Source of the DNA: Dyella sp. OK004
GTDB lineage: Bacteria; Pseudomonadota; Gammaproteobacteria; Xanthomonadales; Rhodanobacteraceae
Length of the DNA stretch: 64,000 nt
Direction of reading: 5' to 3'
NCBI RefSeq assembly: GCF_900114495.1
Contig: NZ_FOZI01000002.1
Span: 434,001-498,000 of the forward strand
In this document: positions 22,882 to 37,652 of the stretch, piece after piece
How positions within the stretch are numbered: the first letter of the stretch is position 1
Layout: each line of letters opens with the position of its first letter
The notes under the pieces: model-generated
Databases searched by the model: none
Told to the model about the DNA's origin: nothing
Seen by the model: the letters and a program-made list of their open reading frames with translations, nothing else
Made by a program: the position numbers and the translations under genes

Positions 22882-24066
22882 TCACCCCGCAGGTACACGC
22901 ACCCAGCCTTCCATCAGCACACGCGCGCTTCGGCTCATGACTGCCTTGGTGACGGTCCACGTACCGTCAACCAGCCTCGCCTCGGCGCCCACCCGCAACG
23001 TCCCCGACGGATGGCCAAAGCGCACCGCATGGCGCTCACCACCGCCAGCTGCACTATTCACCAGCGTGCCTGGAATGGCCGCCGCGGTGCCGATAGCTAC
23101 AGCCGCCGTACCCATCATGGCGTGATGCAGCTTGCCCATCGACATCGCGCGCACGAGCAGGTCGACGTCGCCCGCCGTCACGGGCTTGCCACTCGACGCG
23201 ACGTAATCGGCCGGCCTGGCGACGAAGGCCACTTTGGGCGTGTGCTGGCGCGTGGCGATCTCGTCGAGTGACTTGATCAAACCCATGTGCAACGCACCGT
23301 GCGCGCGAATGGTCTCGAACATCGCCAGTGCCTTGGCATCGCTGTTGATGGCGTCCTGCAGCTCCGTGCCGGTGTAGCCGATCGCGGAGGCCTCGACAAA
23401 GATCGTGGGAATGCCAGCGTTGATCATGGTCACCTTGAGCGTGCCAACGCCCGGCACCTCCAGGTCGTCGACGAGGTTCCCAGTGGGAAACATGGCCCCA
23501 CCCGCGCCATCTTCGTCGGCGGCCGGATCCATGAATTCCAGCTGCACTTCGGCGGCAGGGAAAGTCACGCCGTCCAACTCGAAATCACCGGTTTCCTGCA
23601 CCGCGCCATCGGTCATCGGCACATAAGCAATGATCGTCTTGCCGATGTTGGCCTGCCAGATGCGCACGGTGGCAATGCCGTCGCGCGGTACGCGCGCGGG
23701 ATCGACCAGCCCCCCCGCGATGGCGAATGGGCCGACTGCCGCCGACAGGTTTCCGCAGTTGCCGCTCCAGTCGACGAAGGCCTTGTCGATGGCTACCTGA
23801 CCGAACAGGTAATCCACGTCATGGTCTGGGTGGCCACTCCTGGATACGATCACCGTCTTGCTGGTGCTGGACGTAGCGCCGCCCATGCCGTCGATCTGCT
23901 TGCCGTAGGGATCGGGACTACCGATCACGCGCTGCAGCAGCGCATCGCGCGCGGCGCCCGGCACCTGCGCTGCTTCGGGCAGGTCCTGCAGGCGGAAGAA
24001 CACGCCCTTGCTGGTGCCGCCGCGCAGGTAAGTAGCGGGAATCCGGATCTGGGGAAGCTGTGCCAT
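22882..24066 (-). CDS. prpF: 2-methylaconitate cis-trans isomerase
   Basis: PrpF isomerises the 2-methylaconitate made by AcnD to the cis form that re-enters the methylcitrate cycle. The ATG at 24066 begins MAQLPQIRIPATYLRGGTSK, where RGGTSKG is the family N-terminal motif, and gives 394 residues. The fold is diaminopimelate epimerase-like, with GNCGNLSAAVGPFAI (about 100-114) and the GGER segment near the C-terminus. It lies 106 bases after acnD and 136 bases before prpD, and all three are probably one transcript. No upstream start is needed. Confidence 0.95.
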   Translation of the reverse strand: MAQLPQIRIPATYLRGGTSKGVFFRLQDLPEAAQVPGAARDALLQRVIGSPDPYGKQIDGMGGATSSTSKTVIVSRSGHPDHDVDYLFGQVAIDKAFVDWSGNCGNLSAAVGPFAIAGGLVDPARVPRDGIATVRIWQANIGKTIIAYVPMTDGAVQETGDFELDGVTFPAAEVQLEFMDPAADEDGAGGAMFPTGNLVDDLEVPGVGTLKVTMINAGIPTIFVEASAIGYTGTELQDAINSDAKALAMFETIRAHGALHMGLIKSLDEIATRQHTPKVAFVARPADYVASSGKPVTAGDVDLLVRAMSMGKLHHAMMGTAAVAIGTAAAIPGTLVNSAAGGGERHAVRFGHPSGTLRVGAEARLVDGTWTVTKAVMSRSARVLMEGWVRVPAG

Positions 24067-24172
24067 GCGTGTGTTGTCCTGTGGTGACTGGACTTCGCTC
24101 GCGTCGCACACGAGCGGAGTCTCTAACCGCAGGACCATGCCGCGTGGCGTGGTCCTGCGGATCAGCGCGCGA

Positions 24173-26767
24173 TCACGCCGCCTGCGAAGCCTCGAGGAAG
24201 TCCTGCGCGAAGCGCTGCAGCACGCCGCCAGCTTCGTAGATCGACACTTCCTCGGCGGTGTCCAGGCGGCAGGTCACCGGTACCTCGACGCGCTCGCCGT
24301 TCTTGCGATGGATGACCAGCGTGAGATCCGCGCGTGGCGTGCGTGCGCCAACCACGTCAAAGGTTTCGGTGCCGTCGATGCCCAGCGCATTGCGGTTGCT
24401 GCCTGCGTTGAACTCCAGCGGCAGCACGCCCATGCCGATCAGGTTGGTGCGGTGGATGCGCTCGAAGCCTTCGGCCGCAATCGCCTCCACGCCCGCCAGG
24501 CGAACACCCTTCGCGGCCCAGTCGCGCGACGAGCCCTGACCGTAGTCGGCACCGGCGATCACGATCAGCGGCTGCTTGCGCTCCATGTAAGTCTCGATGG
24601 CTTCCCACATGCGCATGACCTTGCCTTCCGGCTCCACGCGAGCAAGCGAGCCCTTCTTCACTTCGCCATCGACCACGGCCATCTCGTTGATCAGAGTGGG
24701 GTTGGCGAAGGTGGCGCGCTGCGCGGTGAGGTGATCGCCGCGATGGGTCGCGTACGAATTGAAGTCTTCTTCCGGCAGGCCCATCTTGGCGAGGTACTCG
24801 CCCGCCGCGCTGTTGAGCATGATCGCGTTGGACGGCGACAAGTGGTCGGTGGTGATGTTGTCGCCGAGCACCGCCAGCGGACGCATGCCCTTGAGCGTGC
24901 GCTCGCCCGCGAGGGCGCCCTCCCAGTACGGCGGACGGCGGATGTAGGTGCTCTGCGGGCGCCAGTCATACAGCGGCGCGGCGCTCGTGCCAGTGTGGCC
25001 GGTGCGCGCGAACATCGGCTCGTAGACCTTGCGGAACTGCTCAGGCTTCACGCTCGAGGACACGATCGCGTCGATCTCTTCGTCGGTGGGCCAGATGTCC
25101 TTGAGCGTCACTGGTTGGCCGTTGGCGTCGACGCCAAGCACGTCCTTCTCGATGTCGAAACGGATGGTGCCGGCGATGGCGTAGGCCACCACCAGCGGCG
25201 GCGAGGCCAGGAAGGCCTGCTTGGCATACGGATGGATGCGCCCGTCGAAGTTGCGGTTGCCGGACAGCACGGCAGTCGCATACAAGTCGCGATCGATGAT
25301 CTCCTGCTGAATCGCCGGATCGAGCGCGCCGGACATGCCGTTGCAGGTGGTGCAAGCGAACGCGACGATACCGAAGCCGAGCTTCTCCAGATCCGGCAGC
25401 AGGTTCGCCTCCTTCAGGTACAGCTCCACCGCCTTGGAGCCGGGCGCGAGCGAGCTCTTCACCCACGGCTTGCGCGTCAGACCGCGCGCGTTCGCGTTGC
25501 GCGCCAGCAAGGCCGCCGCGATCACATTACGCGGGTTGCTGGTGTTGGTGCAGCTGGTAATGGCGGCGATGATCACGGCGCCATCAGGCATCTGCCCCGG
25601 CTGCTCTTCCCATTGGCCGGCGATGCCGCGCGCAGCGAGATCGGAGGTGGGCAGGCGCTTGTGCGGGTTGGACGGGCCCGCCATGTTGCGCACCACCGAG
25701 GACAGGTCGAACGTCAGCGTGCGCTCGTATTGCGCATGCGCGAGTGTGTCGGCCCACAGGCCGGCGACCTTGGCGTAGGTTTCCACCAGCTTGACCTGCT
25801 CCTCGCTGCGGCCGGTCAGGCGCAAGTAGTCGATGGTCTGGCCGTCGATGAAGAACATCGCGGCGGTGGCACCGTACTCCGGCGCCATGTTGGAGATGGT
25901 GGCGCGATCGCCCAGCGTGAGACTGGCCGCGCCTTCGCCACGGAATTCCAGGTACGCGCCGACCACCTTCTGCTTGCGCAGGAACTCGGTGAGCTCAAGC
26001 ACGATGTCGGTGGCGGTGATGCCGGGCTGTCGCTTGCCGGTGAGTTCCACGCCCACGATGTCGGGCAGGCGCATCCACGAGGCACGGCCGAGCATCACGT
26101 TTTCGGCCTCCAGGCCGCCCACGCCGATGGCGATGACGCCGAGCGCATCCACGTGCGGTGTATGGCTGTCGGTGCCCACGCAGGTATCGGGATAGGCCAC
26201 GCTGTCCTGCACCTGGATCACCGGCGACATCTTCTCCAGATTGATCTGGTGCATGATGCCGTTGCCCGGCGGAATGACGTCGACGTTCTCGAACGCCTTC
26301 TTGGTCCAGTTGATGAAGTGGAAGCGGTCTTCGTTGCGGCGATCTTCAATGGCGCGATTCTTCGCGAACGCGTTCGGATCGAAACCACCGCACTCCACCG
26401 CCAGCGAGTGGTCGACAATCAGCTGCACCGGCACCACCGGGTTCACCTTGGCCGGGTCGCCGCCGCGATCGGCAATCGCATCGCGCAGGCCGGCCAGATC
26501 CACCAATGCCGTCTGGCCGAGGATGTCATGGCACACCACGCGCGCCGGGAACCACGGAAAATCGCGCTCGCGCTTGCGCTCGATGATCTGCTTGAGCGAC
26601 TCGGTGAGGATCGCCGGGTCACAACGGCGCACCAGGTTCTCGGCGAGCACGCGCGAGGTATAGGGCAGCGCGTCATAGGCGCCCGGCTGGATCGCCTCCA
26701 CGGCGGCACGCGCATCGAAATAATCCAGCGACGTGCCGGGAAGGGATTGGCGGTAGACGGTATTCAT
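24173..26767 (-). CDS. acnD: Fe/S-dependent 2-methylisocitrate dehydratase AcnD
   Basis: AcnD is an aconitase-type enzyme that dehydrates 2-methylcitrate in the methylcitrate cycle. The 864-residue protein starts at the ATG at 26767. It contains the cluster-ligating cysteine in TSCTNTSNPRN and the pair in ACTTCNGMSG, the VGTDSHTPHVDALGV substrate loop, and the C-terminal swivel domain with GADYGQGSSRDWAAKG. The short N-terminus and the prpF-prpD neighbourhood favour AcnD over housekeeping AcnA. It is the promoter-proximal gene of acnD-prpF-prpD. No PrpR-type regulator is present in the window. Confidence 0.95.
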   Translation of the reverse strand: MNTVYRQSLPGTSLDYFDARAAVEAIQPGAYDALPYTSRVLAENLVRRCDPAILTESLKQIIERKRERDFPWFPARVVCHDILGQTALVDLAGLRDAIADRGGDPAKVNPVVPVQLIVDHSLAVECGGFDPNAFAKNRAIEDRRNEDRFHFINWTKKAFENVDVIPPGNGIMHQINLEKMSPVIQVQDSVAYPDTCVGTDSHTPHVDALGVIAIGVGGLEAENVMLGRASWMRLPDIVGVELTGKRQPGITATDIVLELTEFLRKQKVVGAYLEFRGEGAASLTLGDRATISNMAPEYGATAAMFFIDGQTIDYLRLTGRSEEQVKLVETYAKVAGLWADTLAHAQYERTLTFDLSSVVRNMAGPSNPHKRLPTSDLAARGIAGQWEEQPGQMPDGAVIIAAITSCTNTSNPRNVIAAALLARNANARGLTRKPWVKSSLAPGSKAVELYLKEANLLPDLEKLGFGIVAFACTTCNGMSGALDPAIQQEIIDRDLYATAVLSGNRNFDGRIHPYAKQAFLASPPLVVAYAIAGTIRFDIEKDVLGVDANGQPVTLKDIWPTDEEIDAIVSSSVKPEQFRKVYEPMFARTGHTGTSAAPLYDWRPQSTYIRRPPYWEGALAGERTLKGMRPLAVLGDNITTDHLSPSNAIMLNSAAGEYLAKMGLPEEDFNSYATHRGDHLTAQRATFANPTLINEMAVVDGEVKKGSLARVEPEGKVMRMWEAIETYMERKQPLIVIAGADYGQGSSRDWAAKGVRLAGVEAIAAEGFERIHRTNLIGMGVLPLEFNAGSNRNALGIDGTETFDVVGARTPRADLTLVIHRKNGERVEVPVTCRLDTAEEVSIYEAGGVLQRFAQDFLEASQAA

Positions 26768-26952
26768 AAGTATCAAGAACCCTGGAGATAAACACCCGGC
26801 TGACCGCAGGCCGACACCCGGTCCGCGTTCGCCACCCGGCGGCCGCTCATTTCGTTGCAAAACCGGCACATTGTAGCGAGAGAAAGCCTTTTCCTTAAGG
26901 ACCTTGGCTTGACTGGTATGCATGACGGCATCGACAATGACTGGTACTGATC

Positions 26953-27072
26953 CCAAAGGGGAGTAGTTCCGGACGCCGCTTCATCAGGCGTCCGTGCAGT
27001 GGTCGTCATCACGAGCGGAGCACCGCTCCGGTCACTGCGGCGGTTCTTCCGCGAACGAGACTTTTGCGGTAA
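26953..27072 (+). ncRNA. yybP-ykoY family manganese riboswitch
   Basis: The leader of the terC-like gene begins with AAAGGGGAGTAG (26955-26966). It continues through a GGACGCC/GGCGTCC stem (26971-26993), has GGTCGTCATCACG (27001-27013) and closes with GCGAACGAGAC (27051-27061). GGGGAGTAG, GTCGTCA and the final AACGAGAC are the conserved blocks of the yybP-ykoY/mntP aptamer, which senses Mn2+. The gene it precedes belongs to the TerC/YjbE membrane family that this riboswitch often controls. I recognised the motif by eye; a covariance-model search would settle the limits. Confidence 0.85.
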
Positions 27073-27098
27073 TCACGGGGCAGCGTGCGCCCGTGGTT
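27071..27098 (+). promoter_or_regulatory. Stem-loop, candidate riboswitch expression platform
   Basis: A 9-bp stem (27071-27079 with 27090-27098, one G-U pair) follows directly after the aptamer and ends 34 bases before the terC start codon. It has no T run, so it more likely acts on transcript stability, Rho access or translation than as an intrinsic terminator. Confidence 0.45.
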
Positions 27099-27132
27099 GC
27101 TGCATTTGTCCCGCGCGCAGGAATCGAACCAC

Positions 27133-27819
27133 ATGGATTTTCTCACCCCCGAATTTTTCTCCGGCCTGATGGCCATCGTTCTGCTGGACTTGGTGCTGGC
27201 GGGCGACAACGCCATCGTCATCGCCCTTGCCGCGCGCAACCTGCCCAAGCATCTGCAAAAGAAGGCGGTGTTCTGGGGCAGCTTCGGCGCGGTGGCGGTG
27301 CGCGTCGCGCTGACCGCCGTAGTGGTCTACCTGCTTAAGCTGCCGGGCCTCATGCTGGCCGGCGGCCTGCTATTGCTGCCGATCGCCTGGAAGCTGCTGC
27401 GCACCGATGACGGCGACGGACACAACATCAGTGCCGCCGCCGGCTTCGGAGCTGCCATACGCACCATCGTGGTCGCAGACGCACTGATGGGTTTGGACAA
27501 CGTGCTGGCCATCGCCGGCGCCTCAGGCGGGCACATGACCCTGGTGATCGTCGGCCTGGCGATCAGCGTGCCGCTGGTGGTGTGGGGCTCGACCCTCATC
27601 CTCAAGCTGATCGAGCGCTTCCCCGTCATCGTCTACATCGGTGCCGGCGCCATCGCCTGGACCGCCGCGCGCATGATTGCGCACGACCATCTGCTGGCGC
27701 CCTGGTTCGACGCCCACGGCTGGGCCAAGTACGCGCTCGACGCGCTGCTGGTCGCCGCCGTCTGCGGCGGTGGCTGGCTGATGCAACGCCGGCGCCAGCG
27801 TCTCGCCAGCGCGGCTTGA
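27133..27819 (+). CDS. TerC/YjbE-family integral membrane protein, probable Mn2+ exporter
   Basis: The 228-residue protein from the ATG at 27133 has about seven membrane helices. It carries the two family motifs, VLAGDNAIVIALAARNLP near residues 19-36 and ADALMGLDNVLAIAG near 115-130; the acidic residues in these helices are thought to bind metal. Members of this YjbE group work in metal, especially manganese, homeostasis or in loading metal onto secreted proteins. The Mn riboswitch just upstream strongly supports a role in removing excess Mn2+. Upstream in-frame codons to 27085 overlap the riboswitch region and are not used. Confidence 0.9.
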   Translation: MDFLTPEFFSGLMAIVLLDLVLAGDNAIVIALAARNLPKHLQKKAVFWGSFGAVAVRVALTAVVVYLLKLPGLMLAGGLLLLPIAWKLLRTDDGDGHNISAAAGFGAAIRTIVVADALMGLDNVLAIAGASGGHMTLVIVGLAISVPLVVWGSTLILKLIERFPVIVYIGAGAIAWTAARMIAHDHLLAPWFDAHGWAKYALDALLVAAVCGGGWLMQRRRQRLASAA

Positions 27820-27872
27820 GGCGAATCGGGCGGCGCGCCACACTGCGCCGCCCTTTTCCACCGAGGAACCCC

Positions 27873-28481
27873 ATGAAGCTCTACTACCTGCCGGGCGCCT
27901 GCTCGCTGGCCGACCACATCGTGCTCGAATGGATCGGCCAGCCCTATGAAGCCTACGCCGTGCCGCGCGACCAGCTCCGCTCGCCGGAGTACCTGAAGAT
28001 CAGTCCGAACGGCATGGTGCCCGTGCTGCAGGAAGACGACGGCTGGGTGCTGACCGAGAACGTCGCCATCCTCAACTATCTCGCCGAACGTTTTCCCGAA
28101 GCGAAGCTCGCTGGTGAAGGCGCGCGCGGCCAGGCTGAAGCGCTGCGCTGGTTGTGCTTCCTCAACTCCGATGTGCATCCGGCCTTCAAACCGCTGTTCG
28201 GTCCGGCCCGCTTCGTGAGCGACGAGGCCACGCATGCCGAGCTGCAGGAAAACGCCCGCACCCGCCTGCGCGGCATGTTCGAGCGACTCGACACCCAGCT
28301 CACCGGACGCGACTGGCTGACCGGCACGCGCTCGATTGCCGATCCCTACCTGTTTGTCGTGCTGCGCTGGGCCAAGGGTAAAAGCGTGAATCTCGCTGGC
28401 TTCGACCAGCTCGAACGCTTCTCCGCACGCATGCGCGAAGACGCAGGCGTGCAGGCCGCGATGAAGGCCGAAGGTCTCTAA
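27873..28481 (+). CDS. Glutathione S-transferase family protein
   Basis: The 202-residue protein starts at the ATG at 27873 after a GAGGAA ribosome site. It has the N-terminal thioredoxin-like domain MKLYYLPGACSLADHI (active-site Cys10/Ser11 region), then PNGMVPVLQEDDGWVLTENVAIL with the cis-Pro and the Glu-Asn pair that bind glutathione. The C-terminal helical domain has GRDWLTGTRSIADPYLF. It looks like a bacterial beta-class GST. The substrate is unknown. It lies 53 bases after the terC gene and may be cotranscribed with it. A bidirectional terminator follows. Confidence 0.9.
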   Translation: MKLYYLPGACSLADHIVLEWIGQPYEAYAVPRDQLRSPEYLKISPNGMVPVLQEDDGWVLTENVAILNYLAERFPEAKLAGEGARGQAEALRWLCFLNSDVHPAFKPLFGPARFVSDEATHAELQENARTRLRGMFERLDTQLTGRDWLTGTRSIADPYLFVVLRWAKGKSVNLAGFDQLERFSARMREDAGVQAAMKAEGL

Positions 28482-28503
28482 GCCCGGAAAAGAAGCAAGG
28501 ACG

Positions 28504-28540
28504 TAAGAAGTAGGTGACTGTGTAGTGCACCTACTTCTTA
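28504..28540. terminator. Bidirectional terminator between the GST gene and the fibre operon
   Basis: A perfect 13-bp inverted repeat (28504-28516 with 28528-28540; TAAGAAGTAGGTG and its complement) has an 11-base loop. It lies between the convergent ends of the GST gene and the exporter gene of the fibre operon. Confidence 0.85.
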
Positions 28541-28559
28541 CATCTCGCCGCTTGCCGCC

Positions 28560-29987
28560 TCAGTACGTCATCGGCACACGCACAGTCACCGTCGCATCCG
28601 GCGTGTCGCGCGTTACGCCGACACCGAGCGTGAAGTTCAAGGTGCGCTTCTCGTTCAAGCGATACGAGCCGCCGATCAGCAAGGTGCCCAGCACCGTCTT
28701 GGCGGAACCAGGCACCGTCTTGCCGTTCTGCTTGGTCACGCCAACCCAGCTCTGGTCATAGCCAATGCTGAAAGAAGCTTTCTCGTTCAGCGCCAGGCCC
28801 ATGCCGACGCTCACATCCACGATGTTGCCCACCTTCACCTTACCCAGCTGCTCCTTGCCCGCCAGCAATAGCGTGCGGCTGACATTGCTGCGCTCGAAGT
28901 TGTACAGGTAGCTCACATTGCCAAAGAACACCACTGGGTCGGACGGATACAGCCAGGTCACGCCCGGCTGCAGCGAATAGAAGCCAGTGCCCGTCGGCAA
29001 CTCCAACGGCAGACCAGTACCCGTCGCGTTCTGCACACAACGTTGCACACAGTCCGTGGTGACTTCAAAAGGATCGCGGCCGGTGCGCGATTTGAAACGC
29101 AGCCACGCGATGTAATACGCCTTGTCCGCGCCACCGTCGTTGAGCTGGTAACGCGCAGTGGCCTCCACATCGCCGATGCCATGGCCGCTTGCACCGAACA
29201 CGCGATCGGTCGCCGTACCGGTAAAAATTTCGCGGCTTATCGTATCGGTATGTCCGTAAACGTACGGAATGCGCACTTCTGCTTCGAGGCGGTTGGTGAT
29301 GCCATAGCGCAGCGCCACCGCGCCGGTCTGCGTGGTGGTCTTCACCTGCCTGACATCGATCAGGCCGATCAGGATCGCCGGAATGACGGTATAGCCCACC
29401 AGGGCCACACGATCCGCGGAGGAATAGCCGAACTGATACGAAGGCTCCACGATCAACTTCCCGCGTGGCGTCAGCACGCCGGGCTGGTCGAAGATCGGCG
29501 CCACCTCGGGCGGCCGCGTATCCTGCTGCGGCGCCTGCCCCACCGGCTTGGTATCCACATCGCTGGTTCCGCCAGCTGCAAGCGAATCGGCCGCGGACAT
29601 CGGCAAGGCCGACACACCCGCACCCGCCGCACGGATATTGCCGGCGCGCTGCTTATCCAGCACATCCATGCCAACGGCGTGCCGCAAGGCTCTGTAATCG
29701 GCTTCCTGCGCAGCCAGTGCGCGCTTCATCGATTCGAGCTGCTCGACTTGCGCGGTGATCTGGCTGCGCATCGCGTCAAGGCGTTCGCCTTGCTCGAGCA
29801 CTTGCTTGCGAATCGTTGTGGAGACATCGCCTGATGCCGGCGGCGTCTGCGTACCAGGCGCCGGTGTGTTGGGCGCCGGCACGCTGGATACCGGTGTTTG
29901 CTGCGCCGCGCAGATGCCGCTAAGCAAGACCAGCCCGGCGCAACCCGCCGAGCGTGCATACCACCATGGCTTTCGTCCGATGCTCAT
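28560..29987 (-). CDS. FapF-like outer-membrane exporter (coiled coil plus beta-barrel)
   Basis: The 475-residue protein has a signal peptide (cut near Ala28), a Pro/Thr-rich stretch and a coiled coil (about 58-103, IRKQVLEQGERLDAM through LAAQEADYRALR). A Gly/Ala linker follows. From about residue 172 the protein is a beta-barrel of alternating strands ending in the aromatic terminus VRVPMTY. This order, periplasmic coiled coil then transmembrane barrel, is that of FapF, the channel that exports Pseudomonas Fap amyloid subunits. The C39 peptidase and secreted proteins of the same operon support that reading. It is the last gene, 37 bases after its neighbour. Similarity to FapF is by architecture; direct homology was not tested. 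Confidence 0.65.
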   Translation of the reverse strand: MSIGRKPWWYARSAGCAGLVLLSGICAAQQTPVSSVPAPNTPAPGTQTPPASGDVSTTIRKQVLEQGERLDAMRSQITAQVEQLESMKRALAAQEADYRALRHAVGMDVLDKQRAGNIRAAGAGVSALPMSAADSLAAGGTSDVDTKPVGQAPQQDTRPPEVAPIFDQPGVLTPRGKLIVEPSYQFGYSSADRVALVGYTVIPAILIGLIDVRQVKTTTQTGAVALRYGITNRLEAEVRIPYVYGHTDTISREIFTGTATDRVFGASGHGIGDVEATARYQLNDGGADKAYYIAWLRFKSRTGRDPFEVTTDCVQRCVQNATGTGLPLELPTGTGFYSLQPGVTWLYPSDPVVFFGNVSYLYNFERSNVSRTLLLAGKEQLGKVKVGNIVDVSVGMGLALNEKASFSIGYDQSWVGVTKQNGKTVPGSAKTVLGTLLIGGSYRLNEKRTLNFTLGVGVTRDTPDATVTVRVPMTY

Positions 29988-30024
29988 CTCGCATTCCTTT
30001 CGCGCCGCCCAATGGCTTGGCGCG

Positions 30025-30600
30025 TCAACGTCCCAGTGGGTTGGCCGCTACGGATTGCAGGCTCTGCTGCAGGTTGAGCCCGCGGAACATGGTCAGGTTG
30101 TTCACCGAGATACTCATCGTGGTCACGGTGCTGATGTTCTGGTTGTTGAGGGTGTTCTGTACCACCGTGGCCGCCACGGTGTGACTGAAAGCGGACGGAT
30201 CGAAACTGTTGCCCGGACCGTTCTGCACCACCGTCGTGGCACCTGTCGCCGAAGCCAGCGCACTGGCTTGCGCGGTGGTGATATGAGCGATGTCAGGAAT
30301 ATCGATCTTGGTCGAAGTGACTAGCGCGCCATTGATGTACACCGCGCGATCGATCCCCAGCGAGGCGACCAGCCCATTGCCGAGATCGAAACCGCCGCGC
30401 ATGTCATCCAGGCGTCCGGCGCTCACCGGCGACCATTGCGCCACTTCCGAGGCATCGCTGATGCCTCCCGAGGCCGCCGACAATCCTTCACTGAAAGCAA
30501 AGTCATGGGCGTGCGCAGTACGCGCCCCCAGCCCAGCCGTGGCCGCCAACAGACAGACCAGAATCACGCGCGGGCGCGTCGACGGCAACAAGACTTTCAT
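30025..30600 (-). CDS. Secreted fibre-operon protein (FapE-like position)
   Basis: The 191-residue product starts at the ATG at 30600, which overlaps the C39 peptidase stop by 3 bases, so translation is coupled. It has a signal peptide ending ARTAHAHD. The middle has LDDMRGGFDLGNGLVASLG and a short INGALVTSTKIDIPD strand region. The C-terminal half is rich in Gln, Asn, Ser and Thr and includes ATVVQNTLNNQNISTV. The VVQN motif and the following alternating hydrophobic/polar pattern resemble the tails of the other two secreted proteins of the operon. A minor subunit or nucleator role is inferred. No database family is recalled with certainty. Confidence 0.65.
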   Translation of the reverse strand: MKVLLPSTRPRVILVCLLAATAGLGARTAHAHDFAFSEGLSAASGGISDASEVAQWSPVSAGRLDDMRGGFDLGNGLVASLGIDRAVYINGALVTSTKIDIPDIAHITTAQASALASATGATTVVQNGPGNSFDPSAFSHTVAATVVQNTLNNQNISTVTTMSISVNNLTMFRGLNLQQSLQSVAANPLGR

Positions 30601-31286
30601 ATGTCCCCCGGACCACGCTTGGGCATGGTGATACCGTCCAGCCCGCGCCGGTCGACGCCGGAGCTGAGCGGCGCCATTGGCGCGGCACGCCAGTCGCTGG
30701 GGCTGTTGAACACCGCCAGCGAGCGTCGGTTGTGAATGACGAAAACAAGATGGTTCTTCCACAGCGCATCGAACCGCGAACGTGGCAGCGAGCGCGTACC
30801 CAGCGCCGGATCACCCACCAGCACGCGACCGTTGCGCATGCCCTTGATCACCACAAAGTGGTGGTAGCCGCGCTCGTCGATCAGCACGATCGCCGGGAGA
30901 TTTTCCTGCTCGAGTTTTTCCAGTGGTACATCAAAACCATCCGCATCGAACCCATTCGCCTGCAGGTACGTTTTGATGTCGAGCATGGAGAAACCCTCCT
31001 TGCTGATCTTCGCGCGGTCGCCATGGGCATACATCTGTTCGAACGCGGCCTGCTCATTGACCGGATAGCCGTACTGATAGGTCAACAGCGTCGCGACCGC
31101 GGCGGAGCCGCAGCTGAAGTCGTACTTCTGCCGGATGGTGTTCCTGAAACGAGCTTCCTTGAGGCTGGTGAGGTGCAGCGTGTAGTTCTGGCCTTGCGCG
31201 CCAGCGGGCACCGGCACCGATGCCGCCTGCAGCGAGCCCGCAAGCAGCAGCGATGGAAGCACCAGCAGCGGCAGCCATCGCTTCAT
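30597..31286 (-). CDS. C39-family cysteine peptidase, periplasmic (FapD-like)
   Basis: The 229-residue protein has a signal peptide (MKRWLPLLVLPSLLLAGSLQ) and a papain-like C39 domain. The oxyanion Gln and catalytic Cys59 lie in QKYDFSCGSAAVATLL, the His in GYHHFVVIKG (His142/143), and the Asp in VGDPALG (Asp159). It is a stand-alone periplasmic form, not fused to an ABC transporter as in bacteriocin exporters. FapD of the Fap amyloid system is of this kind. It overlaps both neighbours by a few bases (ATGA at 31283-31286), which couples it to the secreted proteins before and after it. It may process a secreted subunit, which is an inference from context. Confidence 0.85.
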   Translation of the reverse strand: MKRWLPLLVLPSLLLAGSLQAASVPVPAGAQGQNYTLHLTSLKEARFRNTIRQKYDFSCGSAAVATLLTYQYGYPVNEQAAFEQMYAHGDRAKISKEGFSMLDIKTYLQANGFDADGFDVPLEKLEQENLPAIVLIDERGYHHFVVIKGMRNGRVLVGDPALGTRSLPRSRFDALWKNHLVFVIHNRRSLAVFNSPSDWRAAPMAPLSSGVDRRGLDGITMPKRGPGDI

Positions 31287-31705
31287 GGCTTGAACTGCAC
31301 GTTGATGATGGTCGCGTTCTGGATCAGCACGTTGTTGCCGGTGTTCTGGATCACCATCGGCACACCCGACGCGCCCGCGAACGAACCGGCGCTGATTGAA
31401 TTGAACCCCGTGACCACATGGTCGGCGTCGTTGTTGCTCACCGTGCCGTTGAGCGTCATCCGCTCACTCACATCGGCGCCGCCGCTCATGCCGTCGAGCA
31501 CGCCAGCATCCACACCATGGCCGAATCCGTCGACATATACCGCGCGGCCACTGTTGGCCGCCACAATATAGGCCGCCACCGGCGAGCCGGCGGTACTCGC
31601 GAAGTACGACGCTACCGTTGGACGCCCGTCGGCCATCGCCGCCGCTGACACCAGTGCGAACAAACATCCCATTCCCAACACGCACGTAGGTCTGTTGATC
31701 TGCAT
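31283..31705 (-). CDS. Small secreted fibre-operon protein with QN-type tail
   Basis: The 140-residue product starts at the ATG at 31705 after GGGAGA, with a signal peptide ending AAAMADG. The mature part contains LDGMSGGADVSERM, comparable to LDDMRGGFD in the third secreted protein. It ends SISAGSFAGASG followed by VPMVIQNTGNNVLIQNATI. That tail closely parallels the C-terminus of the large Gly-rich protein encoded upstream (VNAGSF, then VLAQNSGASSLIQQSV). The shared tail suggests a common assembly or export unit. It overlaps the C39 gene by 4 bases. Function is not known. Confidence 0.65.
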   Translation of the reverse strand: MQINRPTCVLGMGCLFALVSAAAMADGRPTVASYFASTAGSPVAAYIVAANSGRAVYVDGFGHGVDAGVLDGMSGGADVSERMTLNGTVSNNDADHVVTGFNSISAGSFAGASGVPMVIQNTGNNVLIQNATIINVQFKP

Positions 31706-31794
31706 GACACCGTCTCCCGTTGTGCCTGCAGCCGCCCTGCTCCGCTGCCTGTGCGTTTCCTGCAACAAGCCTTCCGAACCGGCCGGACACAAGC

Positions 31795-31825
31795 TGTCGT
31801 GGAGCGCGCAAGGCGCTCCACGACA
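31795..31825 (-). promoter_or_regulatory. Intra-operon hairpin after the Gly-rich subunit gene
   Basis: A perfect 13-bp stem (31795-31807 with 31813-31825) with a 5-base loop lies 12 bases after the stop codon of the first gene of the fibre operon. There is no T tract. Such a hairpin can lower read-through or stabilise the upstream message, so the first gene would be made in excess of the export genes. Confidence 0.65.
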
Positions 31826-31837
31826 TGGGTTTGCCTA

Positions 31838-32797
31838 TCAATGACCGACGGTCAGATTCGCCTGCACGTTCACGCTCTGCTGAATCAGCGAGCTCGCGCC
31901 GCTGTTCTGCGCAAGCACGGACACGCCAGCCGCCGCCGCTGCAGCACCACTCATGCTGTTGGCCATGTCGAAGCTGCCGGCATTGACACTGTTGCTGCCG
32001 CCCGCTCCGCCGTTGCCGCCGCTGCCGCCCATACCTGAGCCGCCGGTGCCCGAACCACCCGAACCGCCCGCCGCGCCGTTGCCGGCCACCGCGTCAGCCG
32101 CACCACTGGTTCCGCCTGTCGCGGAGGAACTGCCGCTGGTTGAAGTGGAGGTACCACCAGTAGCCGCACCACCTGCCCACGAGCCATTACCACCGGTCGC
32201 GGTGCTGGTATTGGTGCCACTGCCGCGCGCGCGCGAATGCGCATTGGCGTAGTTGTCGCCATCGCTGCTGCCGCCCCATGCGCCGGCGCCAGCCAACGCA
32301 TCACCGCTGGAGCTGCCGCTACCACCGGCATGGCCGCTACGCGCATGCGCATTGCCACCGTCACCGCCCGAACCACCGCGTCCGCCACGGCCGTCGCCGC
32401 CATAACCTTCACCACCGGCGCCGCCCTTGCCACCGTTCGCATTGCCGTTGTTGGTGGCGTAATTGCCGATGTTGGAGACGATGTTGTTCGTTACGGTGCC
32501 GTCGAGACGGCTTACGGCAACTGCTTTGCTGGTATCGAACGAACTGGTAATTGCTGAAGAGGCCGTACCGCCATTATTGGCCGATGAGCTGCCCTGGCCG
32601 TTGGCATAAGCGTCGCCCATGTTGCCGCGATCATTGCCATTGTGCTGACTGGAATTGCTGTGCGTACTGGAATTGCTGTGGGTACTAGAGTTCGAGTTGC
32701 TCTGAATACCGGAGTTGTTGCTGTTGTCGTCTGCCAGTGCAGGGACGGCCAATCCCATTCCCAGCAGGATAGCTACTGCGATAAGAGTCTTTCGCAT
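31838..32797 (-). CDS. Gly/Ser/Asn-rich secreted protein, candidate major fibre subunit
   Basis: The 319-residue product starts at the ATG at 32797 after GGAGAAA and has a signal peptide ending VPALADD. The mature protein is low in complexity: an Asn/Ser/His repeat (SSTHSNSSTHSNSS, about 30-50), a Val-rich segment (VAVSRLDGTVTNNIVSNIGN), and a long Gly/Ser/Ala/Asn region. The C-terminus runs VNAGSFDMANSMSG, a poly-Ala stretch, then VSVLAQNSGASSLIQQSVN. Apart from the initiator Met there are few charged or bulky residues. Composition and position fit a polymerising extracellular subunit like FapB/FapC, although I do not see the exact Fap repeat. It is the first gene of the operon. Confidence 0.6.
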   Translation of the reverse strand: MRKTLIAVAILLGMGLAVPALADDNSNNSGIQSNSNSSTHSNSSTHSNSSQHNGNDRGNMGDAYANGQGSSSANNGGTASSAITSSFDTSKAVAVSRLDGTVTNNIVSNIGNYATNNGNANGGKGGAGGEGYGGDGRGGRGGSGGDGGNAHARSGHAGGSGSSSGDALAGAGAWGGSSDGDNYANAHSRARGSGTNTSTATGGNGSWAGGAATGGTSTSTSGSSSATGGTSGAADAVAGNGAAGGSGGSGTGGSGMGGSGGNGGAGGSNSVNAGSFDMANSMSGAAAAAAGVSVLAQNSGASSLIQQSVNVQANLTVGH

Positions 32798-33176
32798 GGT
32801 ATTTCTCCAAGCACGATCCGTTGCCCCCTGCTTGCCTGCGTTTGCGGCACGGATACGTCGCAACATGCATGCCACGTCGGGCATTTGCTGGAGAAAGAAA
32901 AGATCGCTATAAAAAACAGTGACTTGAAAAACGATCTCAAATCATCGTCTGATCATCGCCGCGCTACAGGAGCGCGATCTGTATCCCGGGTGTTACACCC
33001 GGTATCGCAGCGCTCAAGAGAGCATCCGCGCGACGAAAAAACACTGCTTGCATTCCAACGAGTTGCGATAGATCGAAGCTTGCAGCGCACCATGTTGAAG
33101 ATGTAACACCGTCGATACACCTGTGCCGACGAATGGCTAACAATGCATGCACGTCACGCCCACAGACCGGCTACAA
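32798..33176 (-). promoter_or_regulatory. Upstream region of the fibre operon
   Basis: These 379 bases contain no gene I can support. They are more AT-rich than their surroundings around 32890-32960, as expected for a promoter. A short inverted repeat CCGGGTG-TTA-CACCCGG lies at about 32986-33002 and could be a regulator site or part of a leader RNA. No sigma factor or regulator motif was assigned. Confidence 0.4.
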
Positions 33177-33207
33177 CAAAAAAAGGGAGCCTTGCGGCTC
33201 CCTTTTT
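33177..33207 (-). terminator. Terminator of prpC
   Basis: An 11-bp stem (33181-33191 with 33196-33206), loop TTGC, has a long A/T run on each side. It lies just past the prpC stop codon on the minus strand and separates the prpBC transcript from the fibre operon promoter. Confidence 0.9.
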
Positions 33208-33224
33208 CGGTGTCAAACGACAGC

Positions 33225-34370
33225 TCAGCGCTTTTCGATCGGCACGTAGACCTGATCTTCCGGACCGGTGTAGTTCGCACTCGGGCGGATGATCTTGCCG
33301 TCCTCGCGCTGCTCGATCACATGCGCGCTCCAGCCGGAGGTACGCGCGATCACGAACAGCGGCGTGAACATCGCCGTCGGCACGCCCATCATGTGGTACG
33401 CGCTGGCCGAGAACCAGTCGAGGTTGGGGAACATCTTCTTGAGTTCCCACATCAGCTTCTCGATGCGCTCGGAGACGTCGAACAGCGTCGGGTTGCCACC
33501 CTCCGTGCACAGCTTGCGCGAGACCTCCTTGATGATCTCGTTGCGCGGATCAGACACCGTGTACACCGGGTGGCCGAAACCAATGATGATCTCCTTGCGC
33601 TCAACGCGGGCGCGAATGTCCGCTTCTGCATCGGCCGGGTTGCGATAGCGCGCGATGATCTCCATCGCTACTTCATTCGCGCCGCCGTGCTTCGGGCCAC
33701 GCAGCGCACCGATCGCGCCGGTGATCGCCGAATACATGTCCGAACCGGTGCCGGCAATCACTCGCGCGGTGAAGGTCGACGCATTGAACTCGTGCTCGGC
33801 GTACAGCACCAGCGACTTGTCCAGCGCATGCGCATGCAGCTCGCTCGGCTTCTTGCCGTGCAGCAGGTGCAGGAAATGCGCGGCGATCGACTCGTCGTCG
33901 GTCTCAGTCTCGATGCGCTTGCCGTTGTGGCTGAAGTGGTACCAGTACAGCAGCATGGAGCCGAAGCTGGCCATCAGGCGGTCGGCGATGTCGCGCGCGC
34001 CGGTGACGTTATGGTCGTCCTTCTCCGGCAACACCGTGCCGAGCACCGAGCAACCGGTGCGCATCACGTCCATCGGATGAGTGGAGGCAGGCAGCAGCTC
34101 CATAGCGCTCTTCACCGGCGCCGGCAGGCCACGCAAGCGCTTCAGCTTGGCGCGATAGGCATTCAGCTCAGCCCAGTTCGGCAGCACACCGTGCACCAGC
34201 AGATAGGCGACTTCCTCGAAGCAGCCCTTGGCCGCCAGATCATGGATGTCATAGCCGCGGTAATGCAGATCGTTGCCGCTGCGGCCGACCGTGCACAGCG
34301 CGGTATTGCCTGCAGCCACGCCGGATAGGGCGACGGACTTCTTGGCCTTGGGAAGGACTTGCTCGCTCAT
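33225..34370 (-). CDS. prpC: 2-methylcitrate synthase
   Basis: PrpC condenses propionyl-CoA with oxaloacetate to 2-methylcitrate. The 381-residue protein is a citrate-synthase fold enzyme of the short type. It shows [15 protein letters not shown], the catalytic His region [16 protein letters not shown], and [17 protein letters not shown] with the second active-site His. The Asp-containing [20 protein letters not shown] follows near the C-terminus. The wording of these motifs fits methylcitrate synthase better than GltA. The start has a GAGGAGAAG ribosome site. It lies 75 bases after prpB and ends at a terminator. Confidence 0.96.
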
Positions 34371-34445
34371 CGGGTACTTCTCCTCATTGCATGCAACTGG
34401 CCGACCGCCTCGAACGTGTCGCGGTACGGCGTGAATTGGGGCCGA

Positions 34446-35333
34446 TCAGGACTTATGGTCGGCAAACAACGCGTCGAGCTTGTCTTCATAGGCGTGGTAG
34501 CCGAGGAAGTCATACAGCTGGTCGCGCGTCTGCAGCGTGTCGATGATGTTCTTCTGGGTGCCTTCGCGGCGCACCGTCTCGTAGAAATTCAGCGCGGCCT
34601 TGTTCATCGCGCGATAGGCACCGCAGCAATACAGGGCAATATCGACGTTGGCGTCGCGCAACTCGTCCGTGGTGAAGAACGGCGTCGAGCCAAACTCGGT
34701 GAGATTGGCCAGAATCGGCACCTTCACTGCGGCCTTGAAACGACGATAGTCGTCCAGCGTCTTCATCGCTTCCGGAAAGATCATGTCAGCGCCCGCCTCG
34801 ACATAGGCGCAGGCGCGGTCGATGGCCGCATCGATGCCCTCCACGGCAGCGGCATCGGTGCGCGCCATGATCACGAAGCCTGGATCGGTACGTGCGTCGA
34901 CGGCTGCCTTGACGCGGTCGACCATCTCTTCCTTCGGCACCACTTCCTTGCCGGGACGGTGGCCGCAGCGCTTCTGGCCGACCTGGTCCTCCATATGCAC
35001 CGCGGCAACGCCCACATTGATAAACGAGCGGATCGTACGGGCGATGTTGAAAGCGCCACCCCAACCGGTGTCGATATCGACCAGCAACGGCAGCTGGGTA
35101 GCGTCCACGATACGGCGGGCGTCCGTGAGCACGTCTTCCATGGTGGAAATGCCGAGGTCCGGCACGCCGAGCGAATTGGCGGCCACGCCACCACCAGAGA
35201 GATAGAGCGCTTTGTAACCCACCCGCTTGGCCATCAGGCCGGCGTAGGCGGTGATGGCGCCCATGACCTGCAAGGGTTGCTCGGCGGCGACGGCGGCGCG
35301 GAAACGCGCGCCCGAGGATGCGATCTGGGTCAT
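34446..35333 (-). CDS. prpB: 2-methylisocitrate lyase
   Basis: PrpB splits 2-methylisocitrate into pyruvate and succinate, the last step of the methylcitrate cycle. I start at the ATG at 35333 after a perfect GGAGG; the long open frame upstream to 36230 is antisense to the symporter gene and is not used. The 295-residue product has [16 protein letters not shown], the metal-binding VDIDTGWGG and the signature loop [11 protein letters not shown], where KRCGH separates this group from KKCGH isocitrate lyases. It also has IMARTDA. It is followed by prpC. This two-gene block is separated from acnD-prpF-prpD by about 6.5 kb. Confidence 0.96.
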
Positions 35334-35450
35334 GAAGCCTCCACGTAAAGCGGTGATTTTAGCGCGCCGGGCGTCGCAATCCCGTGCTGCGGGGCAGCAA
35401 ACGTAAATTCTTGCGTGACCCGGACAAGGCCGGTCACGTACATTCGGTGG

Positions 35451-36764
35451 GTGAGTACACCTACCCGTCTTGCTACGCGCATCCTCTGGGGCCTGCTGAT
35501 CGGCGTGATCGCCGCCGTGGTCACCCTCGGCATCGGCCAATTCCACCCCGACACGCTGAAAACCATGCGGGCGATCTCCACCGCGGTATTCGATCCGCTG
35601 GGCCAGATCTTCCTGCGCATGCTGTTCTTCGTCGTGATCCCGCTGGTGTTCGCCTCGCTCGCCTCTGGCGTCGTGCAATTGGGAAGGCTCGACAAACTCG
35701 GGCCGTTGGCGGGCCGCACCTTTGCGCTGTTCTTCGCCAACATGGCAATCGCCGTGTTCATCGGCCTGGTGATGATGAACCTGCTGCAGCCCGGCCATCA
35801 CCTCGACCCTGCCTCGAAAGACCTGCTGATGCAGGAATACGGCGGCAGCGCCCGCGCCGCGGTGGAGCGCCAGCACCAGCAACCGGGCATGAGCTTCGCC
35901 ACGCTGGTGGAGATGTTTATGCCGCGCAATCTGTTCGGCGCCTTCGTTGGCAACGATCCCGGCAAGCTGGGTGATGTGCTGCCGCTGATCCTGTTCGCCA
36001 TCCTGGTCGGCGCAGCGGGCACACAGCTCAGTGAGGACAAGCGCCAGAAGCTGCAAGCCGGGCTGGATCTGATCAGCGAAGTGATGACCGGCATCGTCGG
36101 CTTCGCGCTGAAACTCGCGCCCTATGCCGTACCCGCGATGATCTATAGCGTGATCGTGAAAGTCGGCGTGGACATTCTGCTGACCCTCGCGGTGTTCGTG
36201 GTCGGTTGCGCCACGGCGCTGGCCCTGCATTTGTTCGGCACCATGTCGCTATGGCTGCGCCTGTTGGCCGGCCGCTCGCCCCTGGCCTACTTCAAACAGA
36301 TCCGCCCGCTGCTGATCACCGCGTTCTCCACCAGTTCCAGCAGCGCCTCGCTGCCCGCCTCGCTGGCGGTGGCCAAAGACGATTTGAAGCTGGCCCCCAG
36401 CACCGCGGGTTTCGTACTGCCGCTGGGCGCCACCATGAATATGAGCGGCACCGCGCTATTCGAAGGCTGCGTAGTGCTGTTCGTGGCGCAGGCCTTCGGC
36501 GTGGATCTGGCATTGGGCCAGCAATGCGTACTGATGCTCCTGTCGGTACTCAGCGCAGTAGCCGTGGCCGGCATTCCCGGTGGCTCGATGCCGCTGATCG
36601 CCGGCCTGCTGGCAACCTTCGGCGTGCCGCCGGAAGGCATCGGCATCGTGCTGGGCGTGGACCGCATCCTGGACATGCTGCGCACCACCGTGAATGTGGG
36701 CAGCGACATCGTCACCGCCACGGTGGTCGATGCCCGCGTGAAAGCTGCCGCTACCGCGTCGTAG
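35451..36764 (+). CDS. Dicarboxylate/amino acid:cation symporter (DAACS family)
   Basis: The 437-residue membrane protein (GTG start at 35451) belongs to the glutamate/dicarboxylate:Na+ or H+ symporter family. It has eight hydrophobic segments, the serine-rich hairpin-1 tip [10 protein letters not shown], the helix-7 motif [15 protein letters not shown], and the helix-8 region [19 protein letters not shown]. Hairpin-2 is [17 protein letters not shown]. The family transports C4-dicarboxylates, glutamate or aspartate; which one cannot be told here. It is divergent from prpB across 117 bases. It may supply oxaloacetate precursors for the methylcitrate cycle, which is inference. A second, DctA-type member lies at 45344. 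Confidence 0.92.
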
Positions 36765-36846
36765 CGCGGGTGCGGCTGTCATCAGCGGTCGCCAAGCTGC
36801 GTCCGGCTCGATGACGGCGGCGGCGACCCATAGCCGCTGCCAATCA

Positions 36847-36893
36847 AGACGATCCCTACAATCAATTAGAGTTATCGCGATACGCGCGGTATC
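36847..36893 (+). promoter_or_regulatory. Candidate OxyR-type site and promoter of ahpC
   Basis: Two dyads of the form GAT-N7-ATC occur here: 36851-36863 (GATCCCTACAATC) and 36879-36893 (GATACGCGCGGTATC). The latter matches the OxyR half-site GATA-N7-TATC. They lie 39-82 bases upstream of the ahpC start codon. The spacing between them is not the ideal OxyR arrangement, so the assignment is tentative. Confidence 0.4.
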
Positions 36894-36931
36894 TTTGTCG
36901 TTCCACAACCAACCCCACGGGAAAACAACAG

Positions 36932-37495
36932 ATGTCGTTGATCAATACCGCAGTCAAGCCGTTCAAGGCTCAGGCTTACAAGAACGGCCAGTTCATCGAA
37001 GTGACGGACGCCTCGCTCAAGGGCAAGTGGTCCGTCGTGGTGTTCTACCCCGCCGACTTCACCTTCGTGTGCCCGACCGAGCTGGAAGACCTGGCCGATC
37101 ATTACGCCGAATTCCAGAAGCTGGGCGTTGAGATTTACTCGGTCTCGACCGACACCCATTTCTCTCACAAGGCATGGCACGACACCTCTGACGCCATTGG
37201 CAAGGTCAAGTACACCATGCTCGCCGACCCGACCGGCACCATCACCCGCAACTTCGACGTGATGATCGAAGAAGAGGGCCTGGCGCTGCGCGGTACCTTC
37301 GTGATCAACCCGGAAGGCCAGATCAAGCTGTGCGAAATCCACGACAACGGCATCGGCCGTGACGCGTCGGAGCTGTTGCGCAAGGTCAAGGCTGCTCAGT
37401 ACGTCGCCTCCCACCCGGGTGAAGTGTGCCCGGCCAAGTGGAAGGAAGGCGAGAAGACCCTGAAGCCGTCGCTCGACCTGGTTGGCAAGATCTAA
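36932..37495 (+). CDS. ahpC: Alkyl hydroperoxide reductase subunit C (peroxiredoxin)
   Basis: AhpC reduces H2O2, organic peroxides and peroxynitrite in the cytoplasm. The 187-residue typical 2-Cys peroxiredoxin has the peroxidatic Cys47 in [10 protein letters not shown] and the resolving Cys166 in GEVCPAKW, the same spacing as the enteric enzyme. The GGLG-type loop region reads [10 protein letters not shown] here, and the C-terminal helix with [13 protein letters not shown] makes it a sensitive, easily hyperoxidised type. It is followed by ahpF after 157 bases containing two hairpins. Regulation by OxyR is likely by family knowledge and a weak upstream motif. Confidence 0.97.
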
Positions 37496-37516
37496 GTTCC
37501 AGCTTTCCCGTGACTT

Positions 37517-37564
37517 GCGGCTCGCCCTTTCGAGCCGCCCCGGACCCGGCGTCCTGCCGGGTCC
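37517..37564 (+). terminator. Two hairpins between ahpC and ahpF
   Basis: An 8-bp stem (37517-37524 with 37531-37538) is followed at once by a 9-bp stem (37542-37550 with 37556-37564), 21 bases after the ahpC stop. Neither has a T run. They could attenuate transcription into ahpF or protect ahpC mRNA, making more AhpC than AhpF. Confidence 0.6.
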
Positions 37565-37652
37565 GACTTCCGAGAATCAAAGGTGTCAGCAACGCCCGGC
37601 CACACCGGGTGCTGGTGATGCTTACCCTGAATAAACCGACGGAGCTCCCACC

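Follow-up and report, generated by a model that had tools for sequence, protein, structure and literature searches.

This analysis concerns a compact operon of five minus-strand genes at positions 28560-32797 of a 64,000-nucleotide stretch of the genome of Dyella sp. OK004 (Rhodanobacteraceae; contig NZ_FOZI01000002.1, positions 434,001 to 498,000), the whole of which is called the window below. The genes are lettered A, B, D, E and F after the genes of the Pseudomonas functional amyloid (Fap) system that they resemble by place (Table 1). A first-pass annotation of the window had described them as a Fap-like fibre operon with two overlapping junctions and a gene order differing from that of Fap. 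The five genes are present as described, with overlaps of 4 bases each at B/D and D/E, but the order is in fact fapB-C-D-E-F minus fapA, i.e. two subunit genes followed by D, E and F. The operon likely represents a second branch of the Fap secretion system, sister to the canonical one, and would work by a periplasmic cut made by D and by export through F.

Table 1. Genes and other features of the operon, numbered by position in the window
Feature	Position	Strand	Description
Gene A	31838-32797	minus	319 residues, Sec-exported, Gly/Ser/Asn-rich; proposed major secreted subunit
Gene B	31283-31705	minus	140 residues, Sec-exported, double-glycine leader, one faint Fap-repeat-like unit (B family); FapB/FapC-type subunit
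Gene D	30597-31286	minus	229 residues, periplasmic C39 peptidase; FapD homologue
Gene E	30025-30600	minus	191 residues, Sec-exported, double-glycine leader; FapE homologue
Gene F	28560-29987	minus	475 residues, outer-membrane exporter; FapF homologue, periplasmic helix predicted at residues 55-105
13-base-pair hairpin	31795-31825	minus	just 3' of the A stop; proposed transcript end or attenuator
B double-glycine leader	31478-31513	minus	residues 65-76 (-12 to -1); predicted cut after residue 76
E double-glycine leader	30391-30426	minus	residues 59-70 (-12 to -1); predicted cut after residue 70
Inverted repeat 3' of F	28503-28541	minus	between convergent genes; possible terminator; found by eye

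The gene order in relatives, one of the checks proposed in the first-pass annotation, was surveyed in 110 loci fetched via the peptidase (30 and 80 from two sets that overlap in genomes) and cited here by number. All five genes are found together in 108 of these loci; the contig ends before A and F are reached in L092 and L105, and the short locus L001 cuts F. Because the genes are co-located to this extent, their grouping is more than chance. F lies on the opposite strand from the other genes in 21 of the 110.

Co-occurrence of D, B and E was surveyed across 197 genomes from the family to which the window belongs; for B and E, no more than 20 and 17 initial candidates were scored in any one genome. 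A peptidase of the present kind (at least 60% identity) occurs in 80 genomes and a canonical-like one (37-45%) in 39, with both kinds in 12. B was found in exactly the same 80 genomes as D, and E in all 80. It had been asked beforehand whether the secreted proteins occur without the peptidase and the exporter. Neither B nor E was found without D in the 197 genomes, bar weak E matches that are canonical FapE; as for the exporter, F adjoins them in 108 of the 110 loci, the genome survey having been one of D, B and E. The surroundings of the canonical-like peptidase were read in 27 of the 39 genomes, including all 12 with both kinds, and all 27 hold a canonical D and F. The window's own genome gave a single peptidase match, and a canonical copy was not seen there. 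In L121, from one genome of the window's family, two canonical Fap operons stand in tandem.

Relationship of D, E and F to the Fap proteins

Profile searches against the Fap families match D to FapD and F to FapF. D scores 142.7 bits against the NCBIfam FapD model (E-value (E) 1e-41; curated cut-off 330) and matches Pfam C39 with E 2.6e-22; the solved chain closest to it is a ‘Double Glycine Motif Protease domain’ (E 1.2e-8). Residues Q53, C59, H143 and D159, which we take to be the oxyanion Gln and the catalytic Cys, His and Asp, are the same in every one of the 159 D proteins aligned, which come from both the present and the canonical branch. D has the make-up of a FapD-type periplasmic C39 peptidase, catalytic residues included. 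In one locus, L217, there are tandem peptidase copies at 1317-2009 and 4181-4873, each with E and B.

F scores 153.5 bits against the NCBIfam FapF model (E 7.2e-45; curated cut-off 700) and matches the sequences of the FapF crystal structures with E 7.7e-28. The AlphaFold model of F, built from 33 sequences (mean predicted local distance difference test score (pLDDT) 71.3), has a long helix at residues 55-105 plus a barrel, and a Foldseek search with this model placed FapF chains at all of the top 18 ranks (best E 1.7e-19; template modelling score on the target 0.75-0.84). An unrelated porin, raised as a possibility in the first-pass annotation, is ruled out by the FapF model, the crystal sequences and the predicted fold. 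COG4313 outer-membrane channels (4rl8) follow at ranks 19-20; they have a related barrel fold but 13% identity to F against 24-26% for FapF, and section 8 of PMC6173800 reports no C39 partner for them. The window's F combines the barrel with a periplasmic coiled coil, and the helix region is kept in 33 aligned relatives. In 23 wider loci the barrel match starts at residue 44-175, signal peptide included. It starts before residue 100 in nine (L127, L210, L211, L214, L216, L217, L218, L224 and L225), and these exporters may lack the periplasmic coiled coil, which is thought vital in FapF. The conservation expected of the coiled coil is thus found in the aligned relatives, while in the nine wider loci the coil is possibly short or missing.

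E aligns with FapE over 43 columns, leader included, with a probability of 89% and E 2.4e-6 in hhalign (a single comparison, no database search). Across the 197 genomes the E profile gave 12 extra weak matches (E 3.8e-6 to 9e-4) within model positions 5-73; the coordinates of all 12 place them immediately 3' of a fapD that is canonical or canonical-like, and the surroundings were read in seven. Judged by these alignments gene E is a FapE homologue, though the likeness is weak outside the leader region.

Canonical Fap loci, including seven of family f168 with FapF above its cut-off, and wider loci of the present kind were also fetched. One split parts 27 canonical from 45 present-kind proteins in the D tree (76 rows; support 100/97) and 26 from 44 in the F tree (72 rows; support 100/98), and both splits were recovered in 100% of 200 bootstrap trees. 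D and F of the window therefore lie outside the canonical Fap branch. Each branch also contains rows of family f220, which belongs to a different class of the phylum. Where both proteins were found, peptidase and barrel agree on the better-scoring reference, with the exceptions of L126 and L229. In L126, from Polymorphobacter, the peptidase is near even (146 to 141 bits) and the barrel nearer the present branch; in the Fil-like L229 the peptidase is even, and its long branches fall outside the present branch in both trees, its own place being unsure. The curated FapF cut-off was passed in seven of 398 sampled genomes, all of family f168, which is taken as Pseudomonas-like.

The idea of a system peculiar to the lineage of the window is not supported. 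Named members of the branch include, besides Dyella, Rhodanobacter and Luteibacter, also Variovorax, Cupriavidus, Polaromonas, Rhodoferax, Dechloromonas, Povalibacter, Croceicoccus and Photobacterium.

Double-glycine leaders and the subunits

The double-glycine leader, the site cut by C39 peptidases, has hydrophobic residues at -12, -7 and -4 and G-G at -2 and -1. After the signal peptide both E and B are hypervariable, then carry a short motif and are then conserved again. L64, R68, G69 and G70 are invariant in the E alignment (40 rows), as are L70 and G75 in that of B (38 rows), in which G76 is kept in at least 90%. With L001 left out, the leader reads L..xRGG in 109 of 109 E relatives and L..x[STRC]GG in 108 of 109 B relatives (the exception is L058), these 109 loci holding 90 distinct sequences each for B and E. 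Leu stands at -7 and Gly at -2 and -1; position -12 is mostly Val, Ile or Leu (mostly V), and most rows, with some exceptions, have a hydrophobic residue at -4. By this pattern of hydrophobic positions and G-G, the leaders of B and E, both encoded beside the peptidase, are of the C39 double-glycine type. A G-G leader behind a Sec signal peptide in both proteins is new here. E was found in 23 of 25 wider loci, and R-G-G in all 23.

In canonical FapE the leader occupies the aligned position but closes with G-R or G-K. A pattern that fixes G at -2, takes R, T or S at -3 and allows G at the last place found 45 segments in 44 of 47 loci (27 in 26 of 27 loci, plus 18 in 18 of 20 further loci). The last residue of these is R in 40, K in five and G in none. 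The canonical loci L204, L239 and L242 gave no match to the pattern. A score matrix made from leaders of the present branch only, with the last position neutral, gave canonical FapE the five top places among all reading frames of 27 canonical loci, and 74 segments exceeded 4 bits against 12 in shuffles. As a general detector the matrix was rejected: one shuffled segment (15.1 bits) beats all FapE segments after the top five, three Pseudomonas-like FapE leaders score 1.0-1.4 and that of L199 scores -3.0. A charge swap between position 116 of D and -8 of the leader was likewise rejected as a rule. Position 116 is acidic (Asp or Glu) in 110 of 112 rows of the branch and basic (Arg, Lys or His) in 44 of 47 canonical FapD, and -8 is Glu in most canonical FapE and in none of 81 distinct E leaders of the branch; the pairing fails because several wider relatives have Glu at -8 and hardly any branch row departs from Asp or Glu at 116.

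Section 8 of PMC5557850 describes the active-site Cys of FapD as needed for FapC secretion and its proteolytic target as unclear. In the tryptic mass spectrometry (MS) reported there, FapE alone was without N-terminal peptides (about 70 residues). Since canonical FapE bears the same leader at the matching site, FapD probably cuts FapE there, behind the G-R or G-K. Trypsin would leave the same kind of end as a cut after R-G-R or R-G-K, so the published tryptic MS would hardly pin the site.

Leader-like motifs were seen elsewhere in canonical Fap loci. Small secreted proteins encoded upstream at L198:1410-1754, L202:8001-8444 and L208:7767-8081 have a leader ending in G-R or G-K and share a V(I/L)LWDE stretch; to judge by these motifs they are possibly a further FapD substrate. 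FapA-like genes in 12 of 27 canonical loci (e.g. L191:5840-6292) carry a motif of the ELSDxDFxxVxSG type, which ends in G-G in L197; FapA processing is not seen in published tryptic data. The canonical FapF proteins at L201:5085-6500 and L209:1564-2898 have a similar motif before the barrel (LAPDDLVTMRGR and VPDSELERLAGR), in the region of the FapD cut suspected in a passage of PMC5557850.

The subunits are far less like those of Fap. FapB and FapC are described in part of PMC12392863 as having three repeats of 38-39 residues each, and this arrangement was not found in A and B. The first-pass annotation had not seen the known Fap repeats, which needs correction for the B family. There the mature part closes with a single Fap-type repeat unit, faint and diverged, that aligns in register with the FapB/FapC repeat (hhalign E 2.7e-4, probability 42%; a single comparison). 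Reciprocal hidden Markov model searches with reversed and shuffled decoys gave cross-matches only slightly above the decoys: six matches of the repeat model in the branch (12.4 to 10.3 bits against 7.7 for the best decoy) and three of the B model in canonical loci (13.8, 11.9 and 9.1 bits against 8.6). The repeat-model matches listed in the branch are all in B-slot genes and none is from the window's own family; on the window's E the model scores -0.6 bits. A profile search of the PDB with the B alignment gave no match up to E 10. Motifs of the QN(S/T)GxN type are common to the B core, E and the Fap repeats.

Relatives of A contain 25.7% Gly and 16.4% Ala, in frames of 237-639 residues with a short conserved C-terminus. 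The C-terminal unit of A matches the B core above 8 bits in 52 of 101 distinct A frames and in none of 200 decoys. In one of these frames, L082:4460-6001 from Dyella solisilvae, A and B are apparently joined into one frame with the B core at residues 452-514, a possible natural fusion. A model made from 11 canonical FapA-like genes found nothing under E 0.1 in 104 branch loci or in window positions 24001-38000; as a positive control it gave matches below E 1e-3 in 30 canonical loci, not counting the genes from which it was made.

Non-coding elements and neighbouring genes

The hairpin after A has a z-score of -2.9, and none of 200 shuffles is as low. Of 88 distinct relatives, 87 have a stem of at least 8 pairs behind A, whereas only 56 of 109 loci, counted with duplicates, have one behind the stop of E. 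The pattern is compatible with A being made at a higher level than the downstream genes, though it is no proof of this. The inverted repeat beyond F, seen by eye, was not among the elements reported by the scan, and a promoter scan found none.

The operon lies, within 24173-35360, between a pair of citrate-synthase and phosphoenolpyruvate (PEP)-mutase-like genes, presumably prp genes, and genes for TerC, glutathione S-transferase and aconitase. In the flanks of L031-L086 (56 loci, nearly all labelled as genera of the window's family) citrate synthase was found in 55, the PEP-mutase-like gene in 54 and terC in 54; none of the three was found in the examined flanks of L087-L110.

Proposed mechanism and its alternatives

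The operon most likely works like Fap. A, B and E would reach the periplasm by Sec, where D would cut B and E at the double-glycine leader; bacteriocin exporters cut the same kind of site in the cytosol. The cut would license export, and F, a FapF-type barrel, would then pass the subunits through the outer membrane. A, which is Gly-rich, variable in length and followed by the hairpin, would be the bulk subunit of what we infer to be a fibre, B a small subunit of the FapB/FapC type and E a FapE-type accessory that may start or anchor export. As a sister branch the operon is not Fap in the strict sense, because it lacks the three repeats and FapA, falls short of the curated scores and has its place outside the canonical branch. 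The Fap-like reading of the first-pass annotation holds for the machinery, F being FapF-like by profile and predicted fold and D FapD-like by profile, at scores below the curated cut-offs. We also lean, with less assurance, towards a more general view in which FapD-type C39 peptidases cut a double-glycine-type leader, with G-G, G-R or G-K at the site, in FapE and further small partners after Sec export, the cut switches on export through FapF, and this operon is an ancient second branch with G-G in two proteins.

Several points weigh against this interpretation. The scores of D (142.7 of 330 bits) and F (153.5 of 700) are far below the NCBIfam equivalog cut-offs, and the periplasmic coiled coil of F is probably not universal in the branch, because nine of the 23 wider F proteins have fewer than 100 residues ahead of the barrel. 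Without its leader columns the match of E to FapE is weak (hhalign E 0.0096, probability 4%; a single comparison). The window's own B reaches only 5.7 bits over 13 positions of the repeat model, below the best decoy at 7.7, and the structure prediction for B (mean pLDDT 59.7) has no usable fold. The window's A has no listed domain of the Fap repeat model and no match to the B core. A shows no leader either, so that, if it is the bulk product, it would be exported without a leader cut. In 24 wider loci with B, the protein has G-G in 12, G-R or G-K in six and no leader seen in six. Furthermore, according to passages of PMC5557850, Fap proteins lack canonical C39 sites, FapF is also suspected as a target of FapD and peptides of FapA-D were found throughout, so that cutting of FapA, FapB and FapC is disfavoured.

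Canonical Fap (fapABCDEF) is the nearest known system, and it might be supposed that the operon is simply a diverged canonical one minus fapA, with no separate branch. The D, E and F proteins are indeed homologous, the subunits are Sec-exported, the order after fapA is the same and the FapE leader stands at the same aligned place; loss of fapA is moreover a common deviation in published surveys (PMC3792158; PMC12392863, section 6). Nevertheless we think this improbable, as a single well-supported split divides the two sets in both the D and the F tree, 12 of the 197 genomes carry the two kinds side by side, the subunits lack three repeats of 38-39 residues, and the E leader is G-G in 109 of 109 relatives against G-R or G-K in 45 of 45 canonical segments. 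A rather stronger rival, though still an unlikely one, keeps the Fap-like machinery and denies the amyloid: the Gly-rich A would build no cross-beta fibres but a matrix that is disordered or resembles poly-Gly II. The composition of the A relatives, with only a short conserved C-terminus, and the hardly recognisable repeats agree with it, whereas the presence of the QN(S/T)GxN-type motifs of Fap repeats in the B core and E does not.

Two other systems share the peptidase. The C39 fold, its catalytic residues and a double-glycine leader in the partners are features of bacteriocin ATP-binding cassette (ABC) exporters of the PCAT and ComA types, and B and E might mature to small peptides that leave the cell through F as a pore and target other cells. 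This is most improbable: D is a free Sec-exported protein, its partners have Sec-type signal peptides and would first cross the inner membrane by Sec, and no ABC transporter is among the five genes. Mature E would have about 120 residues with Asn/Gln-rich motifs, A is long and Gly-rich, the exporter is FapF-like, and an immunity gene was not recognised among the five genes, no search having been aimed at one. The putative pilus or adhesin system Fil of Acinetobacter has a related C39 peptidase and a related barrel, to which D (128.9 bits, FilB) and F (46.9 bits, FilC) do match. Measured against the cut-offs of 475 and 630 bits both scores are far too low, FapD and FapF give stronger matches, the sole Fil-like row, L229, is outside the present branch in both trees (its own place unsure), and no other Fil model matched, although the library may hold none. 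That the operon is Fil-like is the least probable of these alternatives.

The sister branch is unnamed in the listed matches from the open-access PMC literature, and these do not describe a FapD cut at this leader. Co-located fapD/fapF homologues are noted in five more phyla in section 6 of PMC6173800. The GTDB survey in section 6 of PMC12392863, which found only three genomes with two fap clusters, required Fap repeats; since these are hardly recognisable here, the branch is likely to have been missed by that survey. For Fap itself, the alignment of the G-G leaders with the G-R/G-K leader of canonical FapE offers one precise residue that can be tested as the target of FapD.

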